In this document: positions 41,215-51,564 of the stretch, piece by piece
Numbering within the stretch: position 1 is the first letter of the stretch
Layout of the letters: every line of letters begins with the position of its first letter
Source of the DNA: Herminiimonas sp. KBW02
Lineage (GTDB): Bacteria; Pseudomonadota; Gammaproteobacteria; Burkholderiales; Burkholderiaceae_D
Assembly: GCF_003852535.1 (NCBI RefSeq)
Contig: NZ_QAJP01000002.1
Span: forward strand, 1 to 64,000
Direction: 5' to 3'
Length of the DNA stretch: 64,000 nt
Notes under the pieces: generated by a model
What the model was told of the DNA's origin: nothing
Databases searched by the model: none
The model's input: the letters and a program-made list of their open reading frames with translations, nothing else
Program-made: the position numbers and the translations under genes

Positions 41215-41664
41215 TTAACGGCGATGTATTTTCATGATTTTTTGATGTTCGCGCATCCAGTCACGGTCTTTCTCTGTGTTGCGCTTGTCGTATTCCTTCT
41301 TGCCTTTGGCCAGCGCAATGTCGCATTTCACGCGACCACGTACCCAGTGCAGGTTGAGTGGCACCATGGTGAAACCGGACTGGTCTACCTTGCTCAGCAA
41401 TTTTTTGATTTCAGCTGCGTGCAGCAAAAGCTTACGCGTGCGTACCGCTTCCGGATGCGAGAACGATGAAGTGCTGTTCAGCGCACTGACGTGCGCGCCG
41501 AACAGGAAGATTTCATTGTTACGGGCAATGACGTAGGCTTCCTTCAGTTGCACCCGACCTGCACGGATAGCTTTGACTTCCCAGCCATCCAGCACGACAC
41601 CTGCTTCGTAACGATCTTCTATGAAGTAATCGTGAAATGCTTTTCTGTTATCTACTATGCTCAT
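41215..41664 (-). CDS. smpB: SsrA-binding protein SmpB
   Basis: Partner of tmRNA (SsrA) in trans-translation, which rescues stalled ribosomes and tags the nascent protein for degradation. The 149-residue protein shows the family blocks [66 protein letters not shown]-type segments (as [12 protein letters not shown]) and [15 protein letters not shown]. The start at 41664 is the family start; an in-frame upstream start at 41802 adds unrelated residues. The tmRNA gene itself is not in the window. Confidence 0.96.
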
Positions 41665-41795
41665 GACGATCTCTTTAAGGTAGCGAGAGTTTAACCCTGC
41701 GGGCCGTCTTCTGCAGCACCAGCAGTTCCAACCCAAATTCCCGCCTTGCATTACTATAGCGGACACATTCGACAAGAAACGCATAGCGTTCACGA

Positions 41796-42539
41796 ATGTC
41801 ACCCATACAAAACATGAGCTCCTACATATTTGTCCTGATGGTCGGATTGCTGGCTGGCGCCATTAGCGGCGTCATCGGCACCGGTTCTTCCATCATGCTG
41901 CTGCCGGTATTGGTCTATACCTTCGGGCCCAAACAGGCTGTTCCCATTATGGCGGTCGCCGCTGTTATGGCCAACCTGGCGCGAGTCATGGCCTGGTGGA
42001 AGCTGGTTGACTGGCGCGCTTTTGCCGCTTATTCGATCACCGGCATTCCCGCAGCAGCAATCGGCGCCCGTACCTTGCTGGCCTTGCCGCCGCACCTGAT
42101 AGAAATTTGTCTCGGCATCTTCTTCATCCTGATGATTCCCGCACGGCGCTGGCTGGTGGCACGTGATTATCGTATCAGGCTCTGGCAGTTATCCATCATA
42201 GGCGGCCTTATCGGCTTCCTGACTGGCCTGGTGCTATCCACCGGGCCACTCAGCGTTCCGGCCTTTACCGCTTACGGTCTGGTAAAAGGCGCCTTCCTTT
42301 CCACCGAAGCCGCCAGTTCGCTGATGCTGTATGTCGCCAAGGTCATTACCTTCCGTGAATTCGGTGCGATGCCGCTGGAAATATTTATCAAAGGCTTGCT
42401 GGTCGGAGCCTCGCTGATGGCCGGTACCTTTATCGGTAAAGCCGTAGTGCTGAAGCTAAGCAATCAAGCGTTCCAGCATTTGCTGGATGCCTTGCTGCTG
42501 TGTTCCGGCATTTCGCTGCTGTGGGCTGCGTTTAGTTAG
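41796..42539 (+). CDS. TauE/SafE family membrane exporter
   Basis: A 247-residue inner-membrane protein with about eight helices and the two-repeat TauE/SafE pattern: [25 protein letters not shown] near the start and [21 protein letters not shown] in the second half. The family exports sulfite/organosulfonates or related anions; the real substrate is unclear. A start at 41814 is also possible, neither has a clear ribosome site. It is divergent from smpB over a very short gap. Confidence 0.86.
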
Positions 42540-43637: not shown

Positions 43638-44585
43638 TTAATGCGGCCACTTCGGTGAACCGAGGCGCGTGTCGGCACTTTCCTGTGCGCTGGCCATCGC
43701 CGCTGCTGCAGAGCGTGTTTCCACTCCCAGTTTTTCAAATATATGTTCGAGATGCTTGCTCACGGTGCGTGGGCTCATCTTGAGGATTTCCCCGATATCA
43801 CGATTGGTTTTACCCTTGGCCAGCCACGACAATACTTCTGTTTCGCGCGGCGTGAGTGCCGCGCTGGCCAGGCGTCCACCTGGTAATGCATGACTACCGC
43901 TGAGTTCAATCAGCAACATGATTTCATCCATACCTGCCGCACCCATATTGCGCACCAGCAGGCTGGCGCCTGCAGGTTCGGTAACAGGTGCCACCAGCTC
44001 CATGCCACTGCTACCTTTCCACCATGATTGCGGTACCGTCAGCGCATCTGGATTGATGCCGAACTGCGTCAGCAACTGGCGCGCGCATGGCGAGCACCAG
44101 GAAATACTACCTTCGTTGTTCAGCATGATGACGCCCAGGCCGGATACATCTATCGCATCCAGCGCGAAGCGTGCCATACGTGCGTTGCCCAAATGCGTAT
44201 GCAGGCGCGCCAGCACTTCCGGTGCGCGTACCGGTTTGACCACGTAGTCCACACCGCCAGCGGCGAAACCTTCCAGCACATGTGAGGTATCAGACAAACC
44301 GGTCATGAAGATGACAGGGATATGTTTGGTAGTAAGATCCGCCTTGATACGACGGCAGGCATCAAAGCCGGAGATGCCGGGCATCACCGCGTCCATCAGG
44401 ATCACGTCCGGCGTGACCAGGCTCAGGCGACGCAAGGCGGTATCACCATCGCAGGCCACCAGCACGGTATAACCGGCATCCTCCAGGGTTTCGCACAGTA
44501 CGCCGAGGCTGCTCGGTGCATCGTCAACCAGCAATACCACCGGACGGTCATCAGGATTATCAATCAGGTGATGCGACACGTTCAT
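43638..44585 (-). CDS. LuxR/NarL-type response regulator
   Basis: A 315-residue regulator. The receiver (about 14-130) has phospho-acceptor Asp65 in ILMDAVMPG and conserved Lys at about 117 in VKPVRAP. A central PAS-like stretch (about 140-215; DVSGLGVIMLNNEGSISWCSP) is followed by the LuxR helix-turn-helix (about 245-300; LTPRETEVLSWLAKGKTNRDIGEILKMSPRTVSKHLEHIFEKLGV). Its start lies inside the kinase gene (26-base overlap) with a GGAG site, so it is translated with the kinase and very likely is its output. Probable target: the divergent fmdA operon. Confidence 0.93.
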   Translation of the reverse strand: MNVSHHLIDNPDDRPVVLLVDDAPSSLGVLCETLEDAGYTVLVACDGDTALRRLSLVTPDVILMDAVMPGISGFDACRRIKADLTTKHIPVIFMTGLSDTSHVLEGFAAGGVDYVVKPVRAPEVLARLHTHLGNARMARFALDAIDVSGLGVIMLNNEGSISWCSPCARQLLTQFGINPDALTVPQSWWKGSSGMELVAPVTEPAGASLLVRNMGAAGMDEIMLLIELSGSHALPGGRLASAALTPRETEVLSWLAKGKTNRDIGEILKMSPRTVSKHLEHIFEKLGVETRSAAAAMASAQESADTRLGSPKWPH

Positions 44586-47500
44586 TCTCCATTAATGCAT
44601 TCTCCAATGCGCCCAACTCAAAACGGTCCAGCAACGATCTTACTACGTTGCAGGATGCCACGATTGCGGCATCATCCGTCATCGACAGGCGATCCAGCGC
44701 GCGGCGCAAACCGGCGACGTGGCCCATGCGCGTCAATTGCAATAGTTGCCCTATCGCAGCTTGCTTAAAGCACAAGCTTTCTGGCAAAGCTTCGGTGACA
44801 GGGACGACCGGTGGCGCACTGGCATAAATCCACTCCAGTCCCAGCTGTCTTTGCAAGGCCAGCATCAGCTCCGATTCCAGCACCGGCTTGCCGACAAAAT
44901 CCTGGCATCCGGCAGCGCGTAATTTTTCCTGATCGTTCTCAAATAAATCCGCTGATACAAAAATAATCGGAATACTGGTACCGCTGAAGGCGCGCACATG
45001 ACGCGCCGTTTCCCAGCCGTCCATGCCATCCATGCCGATATCCAGCAGGATGGCATCCGGCACAAAATCGCGCAGCAAATCAATACACTCATGCCCACTC
45101 GCTGCTTCGCGCACATTGAAACCCAGCGGAATCAGCATGCCGCTCAGCATATGTCTCTGCACCGGTTGATCATCCACTACCAGCAAGGTACGCATGGCAC
45201 CGGTATGGCCGATCACATCACGTTGCGGCAAGGCTTCAAAGGCATTGATTTCCATCAGCGGCAGGCGTACAACAAAGGTACTACCCTGCCCCTGCGTACT
45301 GATCAGATTCAGGCTACCGTTCATCATCAGGATTAGTTTTTCCGTAATCGCCAGTCCCAGACCGGCTCCCGGTTCGCCACGTAAGCGCCCTGCCGCGCCA
45401 CGTTCAAACGGCTGGAAGATGCGTTGCCTGTCCTGTACCGCAATCCCGATCCCGGTATCAATCACATCGAAGCGCATAGACGCACTGGTACATTCGACAT
45501 GTAGCGTCACGGAACCGGTATCGGTAAAGCGCAGCGCATTTGTCAGCAAGTTAATCAATATCTGCCGCAAACGCTTGCCGTCAGCCAGCACGTAATGCGG
45601 TAAATCACCACCATGCGTATATTGCAAGCGCAAGCCTTTGGCTTCTGCCTGCGGTCGTACCATGCTGAGCAAATCATCAAGGAATGCCGCAAATAAAATC
45701 GGTGTCGGCTCCAGCCGCATGCGATCCGCTTCTATGCGTGCCAGATCCAGCAACTCATCCACCAGTCCGAGCAAATGTTCGCCGCTGCGCTGTATGGTCT
45801 GGATCGCGGTACGCGGTGCGGCATCCAGCTGTTCATTCTTCAGCAGGATTTGTGAATAGCCGAGGATGCTGTTCAATGGCGAACGCAGTTCGTGCGAGAT
45901 ACCAGCCACGTAACGCGTCTTCGCCTGGTTCGCCGACTCAGCGGCTTCCTTCGCACTTTGCAAGGCGGCATCGGTGCGTTGATGGGCATCGATCTCTTGC
46001 GTCAGCAATTCGTTTTGCCGGTTCAGATCATCCTGTGCCAGGTGGCGTCCTTCGCTACCCAGCACCACCCACCAGCTGGAAACAGCAACGATGATCAGCA
46101 GCACCGCAGATATCTTGATGAAGATGCTGTCGAGCAGCATGCGATCATGCAATGTAGCGAGCGAAGAAATTTCCTGTGCATACACCAGCCCCAATGCCGC
46201 AGCACCCACTGCGCACAGAGACAACACCACCACCATGTAATTACCGACGCGTCGATTAACCAGGTGCGACAAGGCATTCGGCAACAAAGCCGACAGCAGT
46301 TGCTGCGCCTGTTCCGCAGTACGCGATTCCTTTTTGCATAAATCATGACAGCGCGATTCCAGCGTGCAGCAAAGCGAACAGATAGACGCACCATATGCCG
46401 GGCAATGCGCCATATCTTCCGATTCAAAGCTGTTATCGCAGACGCCGCATTTCACCGCCTGCCCCGGCAAACCAACCGCTGTCGGACGCCGCGCCAGATA
46501 GTAGCGACCGCGCGTCATCCATGCCAGCAAAGGTGAAACGATGAAGGCCATACCCAGTGTCACGAATGGCGAAAAGGCCGCGACCTGGTGCCCCCACACA
46601 CCAGAGAAAGCAGCGATACCTATGCTGGCAGACAAGAGCATAGTGCCCAGTCCGACCGGATTAATGTCGTACAAATGCGCACGCTTGAATTCGATCCCTT
46701 TCGGGCTCCAGCCCAACGGTTTGTTGATGACCAGATCAGCGACCAATGCCCCCACCCATGCCACTGCCACATTGCTATATAAACCGAGTACGTTTTCCAG
46801 TGCGGCGAACACACCGAGGTTCATCAACAGCAAAGCCAGCAGGCAATTGAAGACCAGCCACACCACCCGCCCCGGATGGCTATGCGTCAGGCGTGCGAAG
46901 AAATTCGACCAGGCCAGCGAACCGGCGTAAGCATTGGTGAGATTGATCTTGACCTGCGACACCACGACGAATAGCAAGGTGATTGCCAATATCCATACCG
47001 GGTCGCTGAACAGATAAGAGAACCCAAGCAGATACATGCGCGTCGGCTCCATCGCATTTTCAGCAGGCACACCGCTCTGGAACACCAGGTAAGCGAGGAA
47101 GGCGCCACCCAGCATCTTCAAACCACCCGGTATGATCCAGCCAGCGCCGGCGACGATGATGGCAGTCCACCAGCGACGACGATTCTGCGGCGTGCGTTCC
47201 GGCAGGAAGCGCAGGAAGTCGACCTGCTCGCCGATTTGTGCCACCAGTGAAAACGCTACCGTCGCCGCCACGCCGAACATGACGGGATCGAGGCTATTGC
47301 TTTTGGAAATGGCGCCGACGAATTGTGCGAACTCGGTGTAGGCCTCGGGCTTCTTCCAATAGATGGCAATATAAGGCGCAACCAGCAGGACCAGCCACAG
47401 CGGCTGCGTCCACATCTGCAAACGTGAAATCAAAGTGATTCCGCGCGCCACCAGCGGCACTATAAATAGTGCGCAAATCACATACCAGATCCATAGCGGC

Positions 47501-47937
47501 CACTGTATCCACATCTGCAGTGCGACCGCGAGTATCGCTGCCTCCAGCGCAAAGAAAATAATAGTGAAGCTGGCGTAGATCAGTGAGCTGATGGTCGAGC
47601 CCATATAGCCGAAACCGGCGCCGCGCGTCAGCAAATCCATATCAATGCCGTAACGTGCCGCGTAGTAACTGATAGGCAGACCGGTCAGGAAGGTAATCAG
47701 CATCACCGTCAGGATGGCGGTGACCGCATTCGCGAAGCCGTAGTTCAGTGCAATCGCACCGCCTATCGCTTCCAGCGCGAGAAAAGATGCAGCGCCGAAA
47801 GCCGCATTGCCCAGCTGCCACTCCGACCATTTGCGGAAGTGGCGCGGCGTATAGCGCAATGCGTAATCCTCAATCGACTCATTGGCGACCCACCGGTTGT
47901 ACTCGCGACGTATGCGAAAGATTTTTTGTTGGGCCAT
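44560..47937 (-). CDS. NCS1 transporter-hybrid histidine kinase with Cys-rich module
   Basis: A 1125-residue fusion. Residues about 30-480 form a 12-helix NCS1-type (cytosine/hydantoin permease-like) membrane domain with GTMLLSASIGIAAF and a QIGEQVDFLRFLP loop. Then eight cysteines between 497 and 534 (CGVC, HC, C-x2-CC, C-x3-C) look like a zinc module. Two more helices (about 567-590, 606-627) precede a coiled linker and HisKA domain (His682 in GISHELRSPLNS), ATPase domain (NLLTNALRF, DTGIG, GAGLGLAI) and a receiver (Asp966 in LLDIGMDGMDG). The tail may be an Hpt-like helical part. The ATG at 47937 is preferred over TTG at 47967. With the response regulator it likely senses an amide-type nitrogen source. 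Confidence 0.93.
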   Translation of the reverse strand: MAQQKIFRIRREYNRWVANESIEDYALRYTPRHFRKWSEWQLGNAAFGAASFLALEAIGGAIALNYGFANAVTAILTVMLITFLTGLPISYYAARYGIDMDLLTRGAGFGYMGSTISSLIYASFTIIFFALEAAILAVALQMWIQWPLWIWYVICALFIVPLVARGITLISRLQMWTQPLWLVLLVAPYIAIYWKKPEAYTEFAQFVGAISKSNSLDPVMFGVAATVAFSLVAQIGEQVDFLRFLPERTPQNRRRWWTAIIVAGAGWIIPGGLKMLGGAFLAYLVFQSGVPAENAMEPTRMYLLGFSYLFSDPVWILAITLLFVVVSQVKINLTNAYAGSLAWSNFFARLTHSHPGRVVWLVFNCLLALLLMNLGVFAALENVLGLYSNVAVAWVGALVADLVINKPLGWSPKGIEFKRAHLYDINPVGLGTMLLSASIGIAAFSGVWGHQVAAFSPFVTLGMAFIVSPLLAWMTRGRYYLARRPTAVGLPGQAVKCGVCDNSFESEDMAHCPAYGASICSLCCTLESRCHDLCKKESRTAEQAQQLLSALLPNALSHLVNRRVGNYMVVVLSLCAVGAAALGLVYAQEISSLATLHDRMLLDSIFIKISAVLLIIVAVSSWWVVLGSEGRHLAQDDLNRQNELLTQEIDAHQRTDAALQSAKEAAESANQAKTRYVAGISHELRSPLNSILGYSQILLKNEQLDAAPRTAIQTIQRSGEHLLGLVDELLDLARIEADRMRLEPTPILFAAFLDDLLSMVRPQAEAKGLRLQYTHGGDLPHYVLADGKRLRQILINLLTNALRFTDTGSVTLHVECTSASMRFDVIDTGIGIAVQDRQRIFQPFERGAAGRLRGEPGAGLGLAITEKLILMMNGSLNLISTQGQGSTFVVRLPLMEINAFEALPQRDVIGHTGAMRTLLVVDDQPVQRHMLSGMLIPLGFNVREAASGHECIDLLRDFVPDAILLDIGMDGMDGWETARHVRAFSGTSIPIIFVSADLFENDQEKLRAAGCQDFVGKPVLESELMLALQRQLGLEWIYASAPPVVPVTEALPESLCFKQAAIGQLLQLTRMGHVAGLRRALDRLSMTDDAAIVASCNVVRSLLDRFELGALENALMENERVASPD

Positions 47938-48309
47938 CAGCTCGATGAAGAATTGGATAGGCTGCAAATGCTGCGACGCAATACAAGCCTGTTCTTAATG
48001 GTCGTCACGTCCATGCGCGTTATTTGATTTTTATATCGCAAATATCGTCAACGATAGTCTCCTGCAAATTCTGCCTGCTTTTTCAAATTACAGGAATTGA
48101 AAATATTTCACAAGGTGAGTTTCCATCCCACCAGAAGCATCGGCAATTTTGCATGTACGCCGTTTGACGTATTGGGATATACGCACAGTCCATACATTAT
48201 CTAGTTCGGAATGCTCGGATCGCAGTCTCCAGGTGCGCGCGCGCTGGATAGTCAGCATCGGGGAATCCGGGTTCCATCCATACAAACATAACTTTGAGAG
48301 GTAGACATC
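47938..48309. promoter_or_regulatory. Divergent control region, kinase/fmdA
   Basis: A 372-base gap with both promoters. A candidate regulator site is TACGCCGTTTGACGTA (48156-48171; TACG and CGTA half sites, 8-base spacer), followed by TATACGCA at 48179. No gene. A good GAGAGG ribosome site precedes fmdA. Confidence 0.45.
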
Positions 48310-49542
48310 ATGGCTGAAACCCTGATTAAAGTAGATCTGGATCAATCACCCTACGATAACGAAAATGTCCATAACCGCTGGCATTCGGACATTCCTATGG
48401 CGACCTGGGTTAACCCGGGCGACGACTTCATCCTCGAAACATATGACTGGACCGGCGGCTACATCAAGAACAATGATAGTGCCGACGACGTCCGCGACGT
48501 CGATCTCACCACCGTCCACTTTCTGACTGGCCCGGTTGGCGTACACACAGCAGAACCAGGCGACCTGCTGGTCGTCGAATTACTCGACATCGGTGCCAAG
48601 CAGGAATCGATGTGGGGCTTCAACGGCTTCTTCTCGAAGAAGAACGGCGGCGGCTTCCTGACTGACCATTTCCCGGAAGCGCAAAAATCGATCTGGGACA
48701 TCAAAGGCATGTTCACCTCGTCACGTCACGTGCCGGGCGTGAACTACGCAGGCCTGATCCACCCTGGCCTGATCGGCTGTCTGCCAGATCCTAAACTGCT
48801 GGCTGAATGGAACAAGCGTGAAACCGGTCTGATCGCAACCGAACCTGATCGTGTACCGCCACTAGCCAATGCACCGTTCGCACCGACTGCGCATATGGGC
48901 AAGATGAAAGGTGCAGCACGCGACAAGGCGGCAGCAGAAGGTGCACGTACCGTGCCGCCACGTGAACACGGCGGTAACTGCGACATCAAGGATTTGTCGC
49001 GCGGTTCGAAAATCTTCTTCCCTGTTTATGTCAAAGGCGCTGGCTTGTCGGTCGGCGATTTGCACTTTAGCCAGGGCGATGGCGAAATCACCTTCTGCGG
49101 CGCGATCGAAATGGCAGGCTGGGTACACATGAAGGTCACGGTGATCAAAGGCGGCATGGCCACCTATGGCATCAAGAATCCTATCTTCAAACCTAGTCCT
49201 ATCACACCGCATTACAACGACTACCTGATCTTTGAAGGCATCTCGGTCGATGAACACGGCAAGCAGCATTACCTCGATGTCAACGTGGCTTATCGCCAGG
49301 CTTGTCTGAACGCCATTGAGTACCTGAAGAAATTCGGTTACTCCGGTGCGCAGGCATACTCGATTCTGGGTACGGCTCCGGTGCAAGGCCACATCAGCGG
49401 CGTGGTTGATATTCCTAACTCCTGCGCTACCTTGTGGTTACCGACGCAAATTTTTGACTTTGATATCAACCCGAGTTCTGCTGGCCCTGTGGTGCAGAAA
49501 TTCAAAAGCATGGGTATGCCTCTGTCGCGCGATCTCAAGTAA
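48310..49542 (+). CDS. fmdA: Acetamidase/formamidase
   Basis: Hydrolyses formamide (and slower, short amides) to ammonia and the acid. A 410-residue member of the FmdA_AmdA family: WHSDIPMATWVNPGDDFILET near the start, VHFLTGPVGVHTAEPGDLLVVELLDI (about 78-105), MKGAARDKAAAEGARTVPPREHGGNCDI (about 199-226) and FSQGDGEITFCGAIEM. The His, Asp and Cys residues in these blocks are the expected active-site zone. First gene of an operon with fmdB and an amide/urea channel; divergent from the NCS1-kinase/regulator pair. Confidence 0.95.
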   Translation: MAETLIKVDLDQSPYDNENVHNRWHSDIPMATWVNPGDDFILETYDWTGGYIKNNDSADDVRDVDLTTVHFLTGPVGVHTAEPGDLLVVELLDIGAKQESMWGFNGFFSKKNGGGFLTDHFPEAQKSIWDIKGMFTSSRHVPGVNYAGLIHPGLIGCLPDPKLLAEWNKRETGLIATEPDRVPPLANAPFAPTAHMGKMKGAARDKAAAEGARTVPPREHGGNCDIKDLSRGSKIFFPVYVKGAGLSVGDLHFSQGDGEITFCGAIEMAGWVHMKVTVIKGGMATYGIKNPIFKPSPITPHYNDYLIFEGISVDEHGKQHYLDVNVAYRQACLNAIEYLKKFGYSGAQAYSILGTAPVQGHISGVVDIPNSCATLWLPTQIFDFDINPSSAGPVVQKFKSMGMPLSRDLK

Positions 49543-49554
49543 TAGGAGAAAGTC

Positions 49555-49902
49555 ATGCCAACCTACGATTACGTCTGCAAGGACTGCGGTTTCTTCGAAG
49601 CGGTGCGCACTATCGCTGCGCGCAACGATCCTATCGATTGCCCGCACTGCACAGCGCAGGCCGACCGTACCTGGTCGTCCGCGCCCAGCCTGGCGCTGAT
49701 GCCGGAAACCCGTCGACATGCGATGAGCACCAACGAAAGAGCATCGCATGAACCGATGAGTTCCAAGAACTACGCATCCAAAGCGCATCCTTCCGGATGC
49801 AGTTGCTGCTCTTCATCTGGCAAGAAGAGTAAATCCACCATCGTCGCCCCGAATGGCAACAAGGCTTTCGCCGGCAAACGACCATGGATGATCAGCCACT
49901 GA
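49555..49902 (+). CDS. fmdB: FmdB family zinc-ribbon protein
   Basis: A 115-residue protein of the FmdB family. The N-terminal zinc ribbon is formed by Cys8, Cys11, Cys29 and Cys32 (YVCKDCGFFE and DCPHCTAQ). After a linker a second cluster (GCSCCSSSG, about 79-87) follows. In Methylophilus, FmdB was proposed to regulate or assist formamidase expression; the exact role is unresolved. It starts 12 bases after fmdA with an AGGAG site, so the two are in one transcript. Confidence 0.92.
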   Translation: MPTYDYVCKDCGFFEAVRTIAARNDPIDCPHCTAQADRTWSSAPSLALMPETRRHAMSTNERASHEPMSSKNYASKAHPSGCSCCSSSGKKSKSTIVAPNGNKAFAGKRPWMISH

Positions 49903-50033
49903 AGTCAGTTCTGGCATGAGCGGAACGCCGGTGCAGTTGCAACGACTGCGCCGGCTACACGCAATGTGAAGTTCCTATGTCTTTTTGAGTGCCGAATAAT
50001 TAAAATCGCTGCTTCATTTATCAAGGAGATGCC

Positions 50034-50549
50034 ATGCTATTAGGTCTTTCACTACTTTATGTGGGCGCAGTACTGTGCCTCAACGGCCTGTGGCTACTTG
50101 GTCGCATAGGCGACAGGGAAATCTGGGTCATCAATATATTTTCCGGCGGCGTCACTTTACTGATTTCGCTGCAAATGGCTTTCGGTGCCAATGCCGATGC
50201 CGCATCGATCAAGGGCGCTGCACTCACCCTGCTGTTTTCCTTCACCTACTTCTGGGTCGCCATCAATCGCTTTAACGGAGCCGACGGACGCGGTCTCGGC
50301 TGGTTCAGCCTGTTCGTTGCCATCACTGCGATTCCGGTCGCAATCGAAACCCTGCAAACCGCGACCACGACCTGGGGCACCTGGTTCGGCCTGAGCTGGG
50401 CGGCGTGGGCAGTGTTGTGGTTTATGTTCTTCCTGCTGCTGGTGGCTGAAAAGCAAATCGCCAAGATCACCGGCGTAGTTGCCTTGCTGTGCGGCATTTT
50501 CACCGGCTGGCTGCCCGGCCTCCTCCTGCTCAACGGTGTATTGAAGTAA
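50034..50549 (+). CDS. amiS: AmiS/UreI family amide/urea channel
   Basis: A 171-residue inner-membrane protein with six helices of the AmiS/UreI family, which passes short amides and urea by facilitated diffusion. Family blocks: LGLSLLYVGAVLCLNGLWLLGRIGDREIWVINIF, YFWVAINRFNGADGRGLGWFSLFVAI, LSWAAWAVLWFMFFLLL. AAGGAG ribosome site. The last gene of the fmdA-fmdB-amiS set (131 bases after fmdB) and followed by a strong terminator. It would bring formamide to the cytoplasmic formamidase. Confidence 0.92.
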   Translation: MLLGLSLLYVGAVLCLNGLWLLGRIGDREIWVINIFSGGVTLLISLQMAFGANADAASIKGAALTLLFSFTYFWVAINRFNGADGRGLGWFSLFVAITAIPVAIETLQTATTTWGTWFGLSWAAWAVLWFMFFLLLVAEKQIAKITGVVALLCGIFTGWLPGLLLLNGVLK

Positions 50550-50553
50550 AACC

Positions 50554-50590
50554 AAACTGCTTGCATGTGCCATGCATGCAAGCAGTTTTT
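50554..50590 (+). terminator. Terminator of the fmdA-fmdB-amiS operon
   Basis: Perfect 14-bp stem from AAACTGCTTGCATG (50554-50567) and CATGCAAGCAGTTT (50575-50588), loop 7 bases, ending in T's. Confidence 0.88.
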
Positions 50591-50695: not shown

Positions 50696-51034
50696 ATGGT
50701 TGAATTAAATTCTGCAAAACTCGATGCCATCTTCAATGCACTGAGCGATCCGACGCGACGCCAGATGCTGCGCCTGCTGGCCGACGGTGAACGCACGATA
50801 GGTGAGCTGGCTGCACCTTTCGAGATGTCGTTCGCCGGTGCGTCCAAGCATGTCAAAGCACTGGAACATGCCGGCCTGGTCAGTCGCAGCGTGCAAGGTC
50901 GTACGCACGTCTGCACACTGGAAGCTGCACCACTGGCTGCCGCCGAAGACTGGCTGCGCTTTTATCAAGGTTTCTGGACTGAGCGCCTGGATGCGCTGGA
51001 ACGCGAACTACTGGCGAAGAAAAGGAGAAAGTGA
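50696..51034 (+). CDS. ArsR family transcriptional regulator
   Basis: A 112-residue winged-helix repressor of the ArsR/SmtB superfamily (LSDPTRRQMLRLLADGERTIGELAAPFEMSFAGASKHVKALEHAGLV, residues 16-61). The metal-binding ELCVCD-type cysteines are absent, which fits the subgroup paired with AHSA1 genes. The AHSA1-type gene overlaps its stop by one base (TGATG), so the two are co-translated. The upstream AT-rich region has a repeat of AACCA/TGGTT near 50652-50697. Confidence 0.9.
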   Translation: MVELNSAKLDAIFNALSDPTRRQMLRLLADGERTIGELAAPFEMSFAGASKHVKALEHAGLVSRSVQGRTHVCTLEAAPLAAAEDWLRFYQGFWTERLDALERELLAKKRRK

Positions 51035-51564
51035 TGGACGAATATGGCGTAGCAACAGACAAGACCACCGTACACATGACCAGGCTGTTACCGGCCAGCG
51101 TCGATATCGTATGGGAATACCTGACGCAATCAGACAAACGTGCAAGCTGGCTGGCCTCCGGCGACATGGGCTTGCATGTGGGCGGTCAGGCCGATCTCGT
51201 TTTTAACTTCAAGAACCTGACCAGCGAAGCGACGCCGGAACGTTTCCTGCCTTATGAATCGAATCACCGGCAACATGGCCATGTCACCGCCTGTGAACCG
51301 CCTTACCTGCTTAGCTTTACGTGGAATGAACGCGATGGTCGTTCGTCAGAGGTACGCTTTGAACTCAAGGCGCAAGGCGATAAAACCTTGCTCACGCTGA
51401 CCCATAGCCGCCTGCCGAATCGCAATGAAATGGTCAGTGTTTCCAGCGGCTGGCATATCCATCTGGGCATATTGGAAGACCGCCTGAACCGCCAGCAGCC
51501 GCGCCCGTTCTGGGCCACTCACGCACAGCTGGAAGCCGAATACAAGCAACGCATATCCGAGTGA
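51034..51564 (+). CDS. AHSA1/SRPBCC domain protein
   Basis: A 176-residue START-fold protein of the Aha1-homology-1 (AHSA1) branch: VHMTRLLPASVDIVWEYLTQSDKRASWLASG near the start, EVRFELKAQGDKTLLTLTHSRL and SSGWHIHLGILEDRLN. These proteins bind hydrophobic ligands; function unknown. Pairing with an overlapping ArsR gene is common in proteobacteria. The ATG at 51034 is chosen over the GTG three bases earlier; AAAGGAG ribosome site. Confidence 0.85.
   Translation: MDEYGVATDKTTVHMTRLLPASVDIVWEYLTQSDKRASWLASGDMGLHVGGQADLVFNFKNLTSEATPERFLPYESNHRQHGHVTACEPPYLLSFTWNERDGRSSEVRFELKAQGDKTLLTLTHSRLPNRNEMVSVSSGWHIHLGILEDRLNRQQPRPFWATHAQLEAEYKQRISE

Follow-up and report, generated by a model that had tools for sequence, protein, structure and literature searches.

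What does a histidine kinase that carries a transporter-like membrane domain sense, and which genes does it command? The question is raised by 64,000 nucleotides of DNA from Herminiimonas sp. KBW02 (contig NZ_QAJP01000002.1, positions 1 to 64,000; here, the window), in which a hybrid kinase and an overlapping LuxR-type response regulator read away from the formamidase gene fmdA, fmdB, and the amide/urea channel gene amiS. The five genes of the original prediction, two on the minus strand and three on the plus strand, were all borne out by open reading frames (ORFs) and family-model matches (Table 1). Its proposal that the receptor and the regulator control amide uptake and hydrolysis is supported by operator and promoter evidence, which is computational. 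The pair likely controls the amide/urea genes. As the best explanation of the whole, we consider it probable that a transceptor kinase senses an amide and that the LuxR-type regulator activates the operon; we are slightly less sure that the membrane domain itself directly senses a small amide or urea.

Relatives of the kinase were examined at 160 loci, comprising the best 80 of at least 585 relatives matched in a contig scan (L038-L117) and 80 further regions selected among the hits of family, class, and phylum searches (L136-L215). These loci share lineages and are not independent; neighboring genes and regulator homologues were called by tblastn with thresholds. Amide/urea genes were found at 147 loci, and at 124 of the 130 loci with at least 6 kb of sequence upstream and at least 5 kb downstream. 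A homologous LuxR-type regulator was present at 148 loci and fmdA at 106; thus, the kinase homologues do not lie mostly away from fmdA or amiS. The neighbors were an ATP-binding cassette (ABC) transporter with fmdA (48 loci), an ABC transporter with fmdA and amiE (45), ABC genes only in the available flank (12), amiS with fmdA (11), urease (9), a urt-like ABC transporter (9), urease with a urt-like ABC transporter (9), other sets (4), or none (13). The usual importer is therefore a transporter of the urtABCDE type, and the commonest order is amiE-fmdB-fmdA-urtE-D-C-B-A facing the kinase and regulator. In two examples tested of each, the binding protein passed the UrtA model and the amidase passed the aliphatic amidase model. 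The predicted neighbor set holds in relatives as far as fmdA and amide/urea genes are concerned, but AmiS is exceptional. Units that pair this kinase with amide/urea genes are widespread, and the form seen in the window is a rare one. At two loci, L199 (G161:C1:1465512-1467349) and G033:C1:985049-986943, the kinase is split over two frames by a break or a sequencing error.

The kinase and fmdA also occur in the same genomes. Among 195 genomes of the window's family, 47 had a match to the kinase, four of which were dropped as weak permease-like hits only, leaving the kinase in 43. Both genes were found in 34 genomes, fmdA only in 1, the kinase only in 9, and neither in 151 (Fisher, 1.6e-28, a descriptive value since the genomes are related), so that the kinase was present in 34 of 35 fmdA genomes. 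In 32 of the 34 genomes with both, the two genes were 0.25 to 10.3 kb apart, and in two drafts they were on separate contigs. Within the window's genus, 8 of 13 genomes had both and the other 5 had neither. In another family (that of G900; 60 genomes), the kinase occurred in 26 genomes, including all 21 with fmdA. Chance adjacency of the kinase and the amide genes was rejected on the basis of this co-occurrence and the neighbor counts.

A palindrome recurs upstream of the kinase. We took up to 600 bases 5' of the kinase and kept 123 non-redundant upstream regions of 159. The motif TACG-N8-CGTA was present in 78 of the 123 regions, whereas spacers of 4 to 7 and 9 to 13 bases were found 0 or 1 times each. 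It occurred 91 times in 74 kb of upstream regions, as opposed to 25 times in the remaining 2.02 Mb of these loci. The consensus across loci is ATACGTCAATTGACGTAT. A weight matrix reached at least 12 bits in 90 of 123 upstream regions and in 17 of 3,198 other 600-base pieces; by class, 73 of 81 ABC loci and 7 of 9 AmiS loci (the misses being L192 and L194) reached this value. Some urea loci have the site directly in front of the transporter genes rather than upstream of the kinase (L188, 22.7 bits; L193, 24.0 bits; L165, 11.6 bits). The predicted operator of the window scored 22.6 bits, compared with 6.5 bits for its next best site. When eight related intergenic regions were aligned, the stretch of invariant columns within its core ranked among the longest.

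All three held-out kinase loci reached 12 bits (L244, 26.4; L251, 23.0; L258, 16.2). Where the stretch covered held no kinase, none of 10 fmdA loci and none of 9 stand-alone permease loci did so (best, 10.2 bits), although many of these 19 loci share the same enzymes and transporter. Thus, the operator goes with the kinase-regulator pair. The Herminiimonas genome itself contains 46 exact-core sites, and judged by eye the inner consensus fits the window site alone; among 15 of the 46 scored with the matrix, the next best reached 14.3 bits (G000:C10:27916) and 12.9 bits (G000:C2:164802). A second TACG-N8-CGTA in the window (41519-41536), within the ORF 41215-41802, scored 6.5 bits and is probably a chance occurrence.

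The spacing between operator and promoter is also conserved. In 80 loci aligned on the operator, a hexamer of the form NAnnnT begins at an offset of 40 bases, counted from the first base of the 18-mer, in 47 loci on the operon side and in 32 on the kinase side, compared with means over all offsets of 4.7% and 4.4%, respectively. Weak preferences for C and A further downstream suggest that transcription begins some 44 bases from the center of the operator. A sigma-70 consensus scan of the window's intergenic region gave no full promoter for fmdA, and no matching -10-like element was found on the kinase side on reading this sequence. The spacing of operator, -10-like element, and predicted start would be that of an activator standing in for the -35 element.

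The membrane domain had been described as an NCS1-type permease fused to the kinase, a description that the predicted fold and a mixed profile support but Pfam and Protein Data Bank (PDB) sequence searches do not. In a Pfam scan with a limit of E 10, where HMMER filters discard most matches above about 0.1, the domain matched neither PF02133 nor SSF/SLC5 or any other transporter model. PDB sequence searches with the sensor, or with a sensor-only profile, also gave no match. A predicted model of residues 1-639 was built from a 47-row alignment (predicted local distance difference test score, 78.7; predicted template modeling [TM] score, 0.79). Its best PDB fold matches in Foldseek were the NCS1 proteins CodB (E 6.8e-9; TM score, 0.73 by target) and Mhp1 (E 3.6e-8), with SLC5-type proteins ranking behind them; identity to CodB and Mhp1 was 16 to 18%. 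A profile of 4 sensors and 8 permeases matched Mhp1 (E 3.8e-12) and CodB (E 5.3e-12). Because the sensor-only profile gave no match, the sequence kinship to NCS1 runs through intermediate permeases, and the assignment of the sensor domain holds at the level of the modeled fold. In the mixed-profile alignment, read by eye, E132 aligns with Mhp1 Q121, N335 with N318, and, next to a gap, K330 with S312, residues of Mhp1 that we take to have substrate and sodium roles. The Na2 site of CbrA also holds a lysine (PMC13022988), and K330 is therefore a lead only.

Stand-alone relatives of the sensor bear on the ligand. Such proteins, 39 to 52% identical to the sensor, were found in plasmid records and in the class search. 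We examined 12 of them, namely, the ten at the top of the plasmid-record list and two from the class search; the records left unopened were near-identical Acinetobacter and Klebsiella entries and one Arthrobacter entry. Eight of the 12 lie near an amide/urea hydrolase gene (urease, formamidase, or amidase). The neighbors are fmdA-fmdB in Moraxella, an aliphatic amidase and acetate-CoA ligase in Arthrobacter U41, fmdA 0.8 kb on in Tsukamurella, and urease in G473 and Acinetobacter lwoffii; in Klebsiella pneumoniae, the permease follows ureG. With a kinase also present, the neighbors are an amidase in Methylovirgula and fmdA and amiE in G457 (L137). In Acinetobacter baumannii (L251), the permease faces the kinase, with the operator between them. 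L137, L247 (G473), L251, and L256 are unannotated, and their neighbors were judged from tblastn alone. Because these closest stand-alone kin are found near urease, formamidase, or amidase genes, the sensor is probably a urea/short-chain-amide receptor, and the earlier hint at hydantoin or cytosine is to be replaced.

Sensors and permeases share much of their sequence. Sixty-five of 101 tested sensor-invariant residues are kept in at least 11 of the 12 permeases, and E132, Q328, K330, N332, and N335 are identical in 37 sensors and all 12. F52 (replaced by Y), E56 (F or Q), A133 (G), and A338 (S) are invariant in the 37 sensors and replaced in every permease, as is the tail residue Y515. The permeases form one clade beside two unusual kinases, with an uncertain root; because the outgroup branches are saturated, the direction of change between sensor and permease is unsettled. 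A search of 398 phylum genomes at E 1e-60 gave 57 hits, every one of them in a frame of at least 894 residues, so stand-alone forms are rare in this sample; two were found in the 369 genomes of the class sample. Six permeases (L245, L246, L247, L252, L253, and L255) are labeled allantoin permease or cytosine permease, or are unnamed, and stand beside urease, formamidase, or amidase genes; they may be urea/amide importers, which suggests that some are misnamed. More distant permeases (L234 and L237; 24 to 25% identity to the sensor) also have a cysteine-rich tail.

Table 1. Coordinates of the divergent unit and of its predicted control elements in the window
Feature	Coordinates	Strand	Basis
Response regulator, REC and GerE (LuxR-type) DNA-binding domain	43638..44585	-	ORF, Pfam domains, alignment
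Hybrid histidine kinase, N-terminal NCS1-like membrane domain, 1125 aa from ATG	44560..47937	-	ORF, HisKA/HATPase_c/REC, homologues
Kinase receiver domain, Asp966	44854..45183	-	Pfam; Asp in 71/72 rows
HATPase_c	45256..45582	-	Pfam
HisKA, phospho-acceptor His682	45727..45924	-	Pfam; His in 71/72 rows
Linker, eight invariant Cys (497, 500, 512, 520, 523, 524, 530, 534), possible metal site	46318..46470	-	alignments; short strands in model
NCS1-like membrane domain (LeuT fold; roughly residues 1-485), presumed receptor for amide/urea	46483..47937	-	fold model, Foldseek, profile, permease relatives
Predicted regulator operator GTACGCCGTTTGACGTAT (core TACG-N8-CGTA, 48156-48171)	48155..48172	.	spacer test, matrix, alignment
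CATTAT, predicted -10-like element for fmdA, spaced from operator as is usual in the family	48195..48200	+	offset counts
fmdA, formamidase	48310..49542	+	NF045496, 753 bits
fmdB, zinc-ribbon RPWMISH protein	49555..49902	+	NF053663 passed
amiS, AmiS/UreI family amide/urea channel	50034..50549	+	PF02293, 206 bits

FmdA is well above the cut-off of 500 bits for the formamidase equivalog, as is AmiS above the 25 bits of its family. The regulator ORF, which has a receiver with the phospho-Asp and a GerE domain, is of the LuxR/NarL type and overlaps the kinase ORF by 26 bases; an alternative kinase start is possible at a TTG (47967). The kinase domains named in the original prediction were all found, but a linker with eight cysteines had been missed. 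These cysteines are invariant in alignments of 25, 37, and 47 sequences; they are complete in two of the 12 permeases and lost in part or mostly in the rest. In the model, the transporter domain is followed by short strands carrying the cysteines and then by two long helices. Pfam gave no match to a STAC region, although whether it holds a STAC model was unchecked. A C-terminal Hpt domain was rejected because residues 1028-1125 of the kinase have no conserved histidine. Downstream (3') of amiS, an ArsR-type regulator and an AHSA1-domain protein with a 4-base overlap (50696-51564) are outside the unit as far as examined.

The mechanism that we favor starts with the kinase as a transceptor-type receptor, the NCS1-like domain of which would bind a small amide, formamide or acetamide in the window and urea in urease-linked relatives. 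Binding would alter the state of the kinase through the eight-cysteine linker, and phosphate would pass through His682 and the receivers to the overlapping regulator. A regulator dimer is then predicted to bind the palindrome, the center of which precedes the predicted start (near 48208) by about 44 bases; this class-II-like position over the -35 region would lead to activation of fmdA-fmdB-amiS. Many relatives have a second -10-like element on the kinase side of the symmetric site, and there the system would also induce itself. AmiS would admit the amide, and FmdA would convert it to ammonia and formate. Sensing of urea on behalf of a urease was rejected for the Herminiimonas host, the genome of which has no urease match.

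It is possible, if unlikely, that the kinase controls the operon but that its membrane domain does not bind the amide and responds to another cue, such as ammonia, pH, or the flux through AmiS or the ABC transporter. The usual partner of the kinase is indeed a separate ABC transporter, and the four membrane-domain residues replaced in all permeases imply that the site was altered on one side. However, five residues are identical in the 37 aligned sensors and all 12 permeases, and in L137 and L251 kinase and permease adjoin with the operator between them. A receptor for a classical NCS1 substrate (hydantoin, cytosine, allantoin, or another nucleobase product), with amides as downstream products, has the fold matches to CodB and Mhp1 and the database names of the stand-alone kin ("allantoin permease," "cytosine permease") on its side. 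We regard it as very improbable, given that 147 of the 160 kinase loci have fmdA, amiE, urease, or urt-type genes and that an amide/urea hydrolase is encoded near 8 of 12 permeases; genes for hydantoinase, allantoinase, and cytosine deaminase were not searched for.

Two further alternatives concern regulation. The palindrome lies over the -35 region, where it could keep RNA polymerase out, and the regulator might repress the operon until the signal relieves repression. This is improbable, since the window's intergenic region has no sigma-70 consensus promoter and many loci show, on both sides, a -10-like element at a fixed class-II-like spacing, two traits typical of promoters that depend on an activator; we infer activation rather than repression. 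Finally, the kinase and the amide genes might merely travel on one mobile cassette without any regulation. Lateral gain is indicated by the sensor tree and by the patchy presence in the genus, and plasmid copies exist. Yet the divergent order and the operator persist across many Pseudomonadota families, and none of the 10 fmdA loci without the kinase has an operator of 12 bits, so that mere hitch-hiking is scarcely credible.

Several observations count against control by the kinase-regulator pair or against sensing of an amide. Class-wide, where the kinase was searched in 369 genomes and fmdA in 274, fmdA was found in 15 of the 274 genomes and the kinase in only 6 of those 15 (in the kinase search and one companion search, at most three first-look candidates were scored per genome). 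Because 9 of the 15 lack the kinase, fmdA operons are often under other control. By the rule used, 13 of 160 kinase loci have no amide/urea gene; several of these are at contig ends and L115 does carry urt-like ABC genes, but L099, L106, L136, and L138 show none in the available stretch. The kinase homologues L150 and L151 (G331) have no LuxR-type regulator and are sited elsewhere, L150 next to the RuBisCO large chain and CbbQ. The matrix was trained on the same regions that it later scored, so that independent evidence comes from the comparison of spacers and from the three loci outside the training set; the matrix reached 12 bits upstream of the kinase at only 7 of 21 urea-type and 3 of 12 neighborless loci, and the L258 site precedes an amidase gene and is not beside the kinase. 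The operon-side -10 signal is uneven (36 of 46 regions in the contig-scan set and 11 of 34 in the other). Three of the 12 permeases (two from Streptomyces and one from another Arthrobacter) have no amide gene within about 5 kb on each side. In the known kinase CbrA, histidine did not significantly alter the activities measured, according to the part of the report available (PMC7096432).

CbrA/CbrB and CrbS/CrbR are the nearest kind in working. They likewise have a transporter-like membrane domain fused to a histidine kinase, as described in the accessible text of three reports (PMC5715377, PMC7096432, PMC13022988), and the window kinase shares with such SLC5/STAC transporter-kinases the histidine kinase core and the partner regulator. 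It differs from CbrA and CrbS, which are SLC5 proteins, in its NCS1-like domain, its eight-cysteine linker, and its link to an amide/urea pathway. CrbS is also a hybrid kinase, and its LuxR-type regulator requires an inverted repeat in its promoters, but the window operator is unlike the ACTU examples published there (PMC5715377, in the part available). CodB and Mhp1 are the best fold matches to the sensor, which differs in being fused to a kinase and in giving no PF02133 score. The original prediction suspected a novel system; indeed, no account of an NCS1-type kinase with amide genes was found in the literature searched, most subscription journals lying outside the search.

The genes under control have known counterparts. 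The fmdCABDEF cluster of Methylophilus methylotrophus, induced by formamide and urea, comprises genes for formamidase, a putative positive regulator, and a binding-protein transporter for amides and urea. It is a similar set of enzyme and importer genes, and the text available names no two-component regulator (PMC10781810). The chromosome of Pseudomonas veronii Yu15, which uses acetamide and formamide as nitrogen sources, carries amiE-fmdA-fmdB-urtABCDE, the gene set of the common form; a kinase or response regulator is likewise unnamed in the accessible part of the report (PMC13209695). In Klebsiella, L244 (CP023937.1) has amiF-urtEDCBA facing the kinase and regulator, with its high-scoring operator between them. 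In gene content, this locus agrees with the pKPN-307 cluster for urea transport (UrtABC/AmiF, "UTS"), for which the available parts of the reports name no regulator (PMC5506382, PMC13060141); we infer that the two carry the same cluster.

A wider reading, which we hold tentatively and at slightly less than an even chance, is that NCS1-fold transceptor kinases directly sense urea and short-chain amides throughout the phylum and command the host's importer and hydrolase through one bidirectional operator. The importer would be an ABC transporter, AmiS, or a stand-alone permease related to the sensor itself, and the stand-alone permeases would be importers of urea and amides that have gone unrecognized; their ancestor may have been a sensor that lost its kinase part. 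Sensor and permease may be set apart by a few positions, E56 and A338 among them. If the pair works as proposed, many Pseudomonadota would possess a sensor and DNA switch for amide and urea use, which would account for the ability of fmd-type clusters to respond to these two compounds, formamide and urea, and provide a candidate regulator for the Klebsiella plasmid urea-uptake cluster. It would also add a second transceptor fold, one with close permease kin, for asking how a transporter turns into a receptor.

In a phylogeny of 92 sensors, well-supported branches force two changes of the AmiS form, which is the minimum number, and the window clade nests among ABC-transporter kinases of Comamonadaceae and allies. 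L203, from the same genus as the window, has the ABC form and is on a different branch. Given this nesting and the ABC form in L203, the window cassette looks laterally acquired, with the channel replacing the ABC transporter. L266 and L268 combine fmdA with amiS but have no kinase nearby. L192 and L194 have a non-hybrid kinase with fmdA-amiS-fmdB; in L194 (4124-5392), the non-hybrid kinase is followed by a REC-HisKA-HATPase protein and then by fmdA-amiS-fmdB. Matches to the sensor were found in 520 of 72,556 plasmid records, 340 of them from Klebsiella. A few Klebsiella plasmid records carry the stand-alone permease form, and the Klebsiella plasmid matches listed cover sensor residues 3-639, as expected of the kinase.

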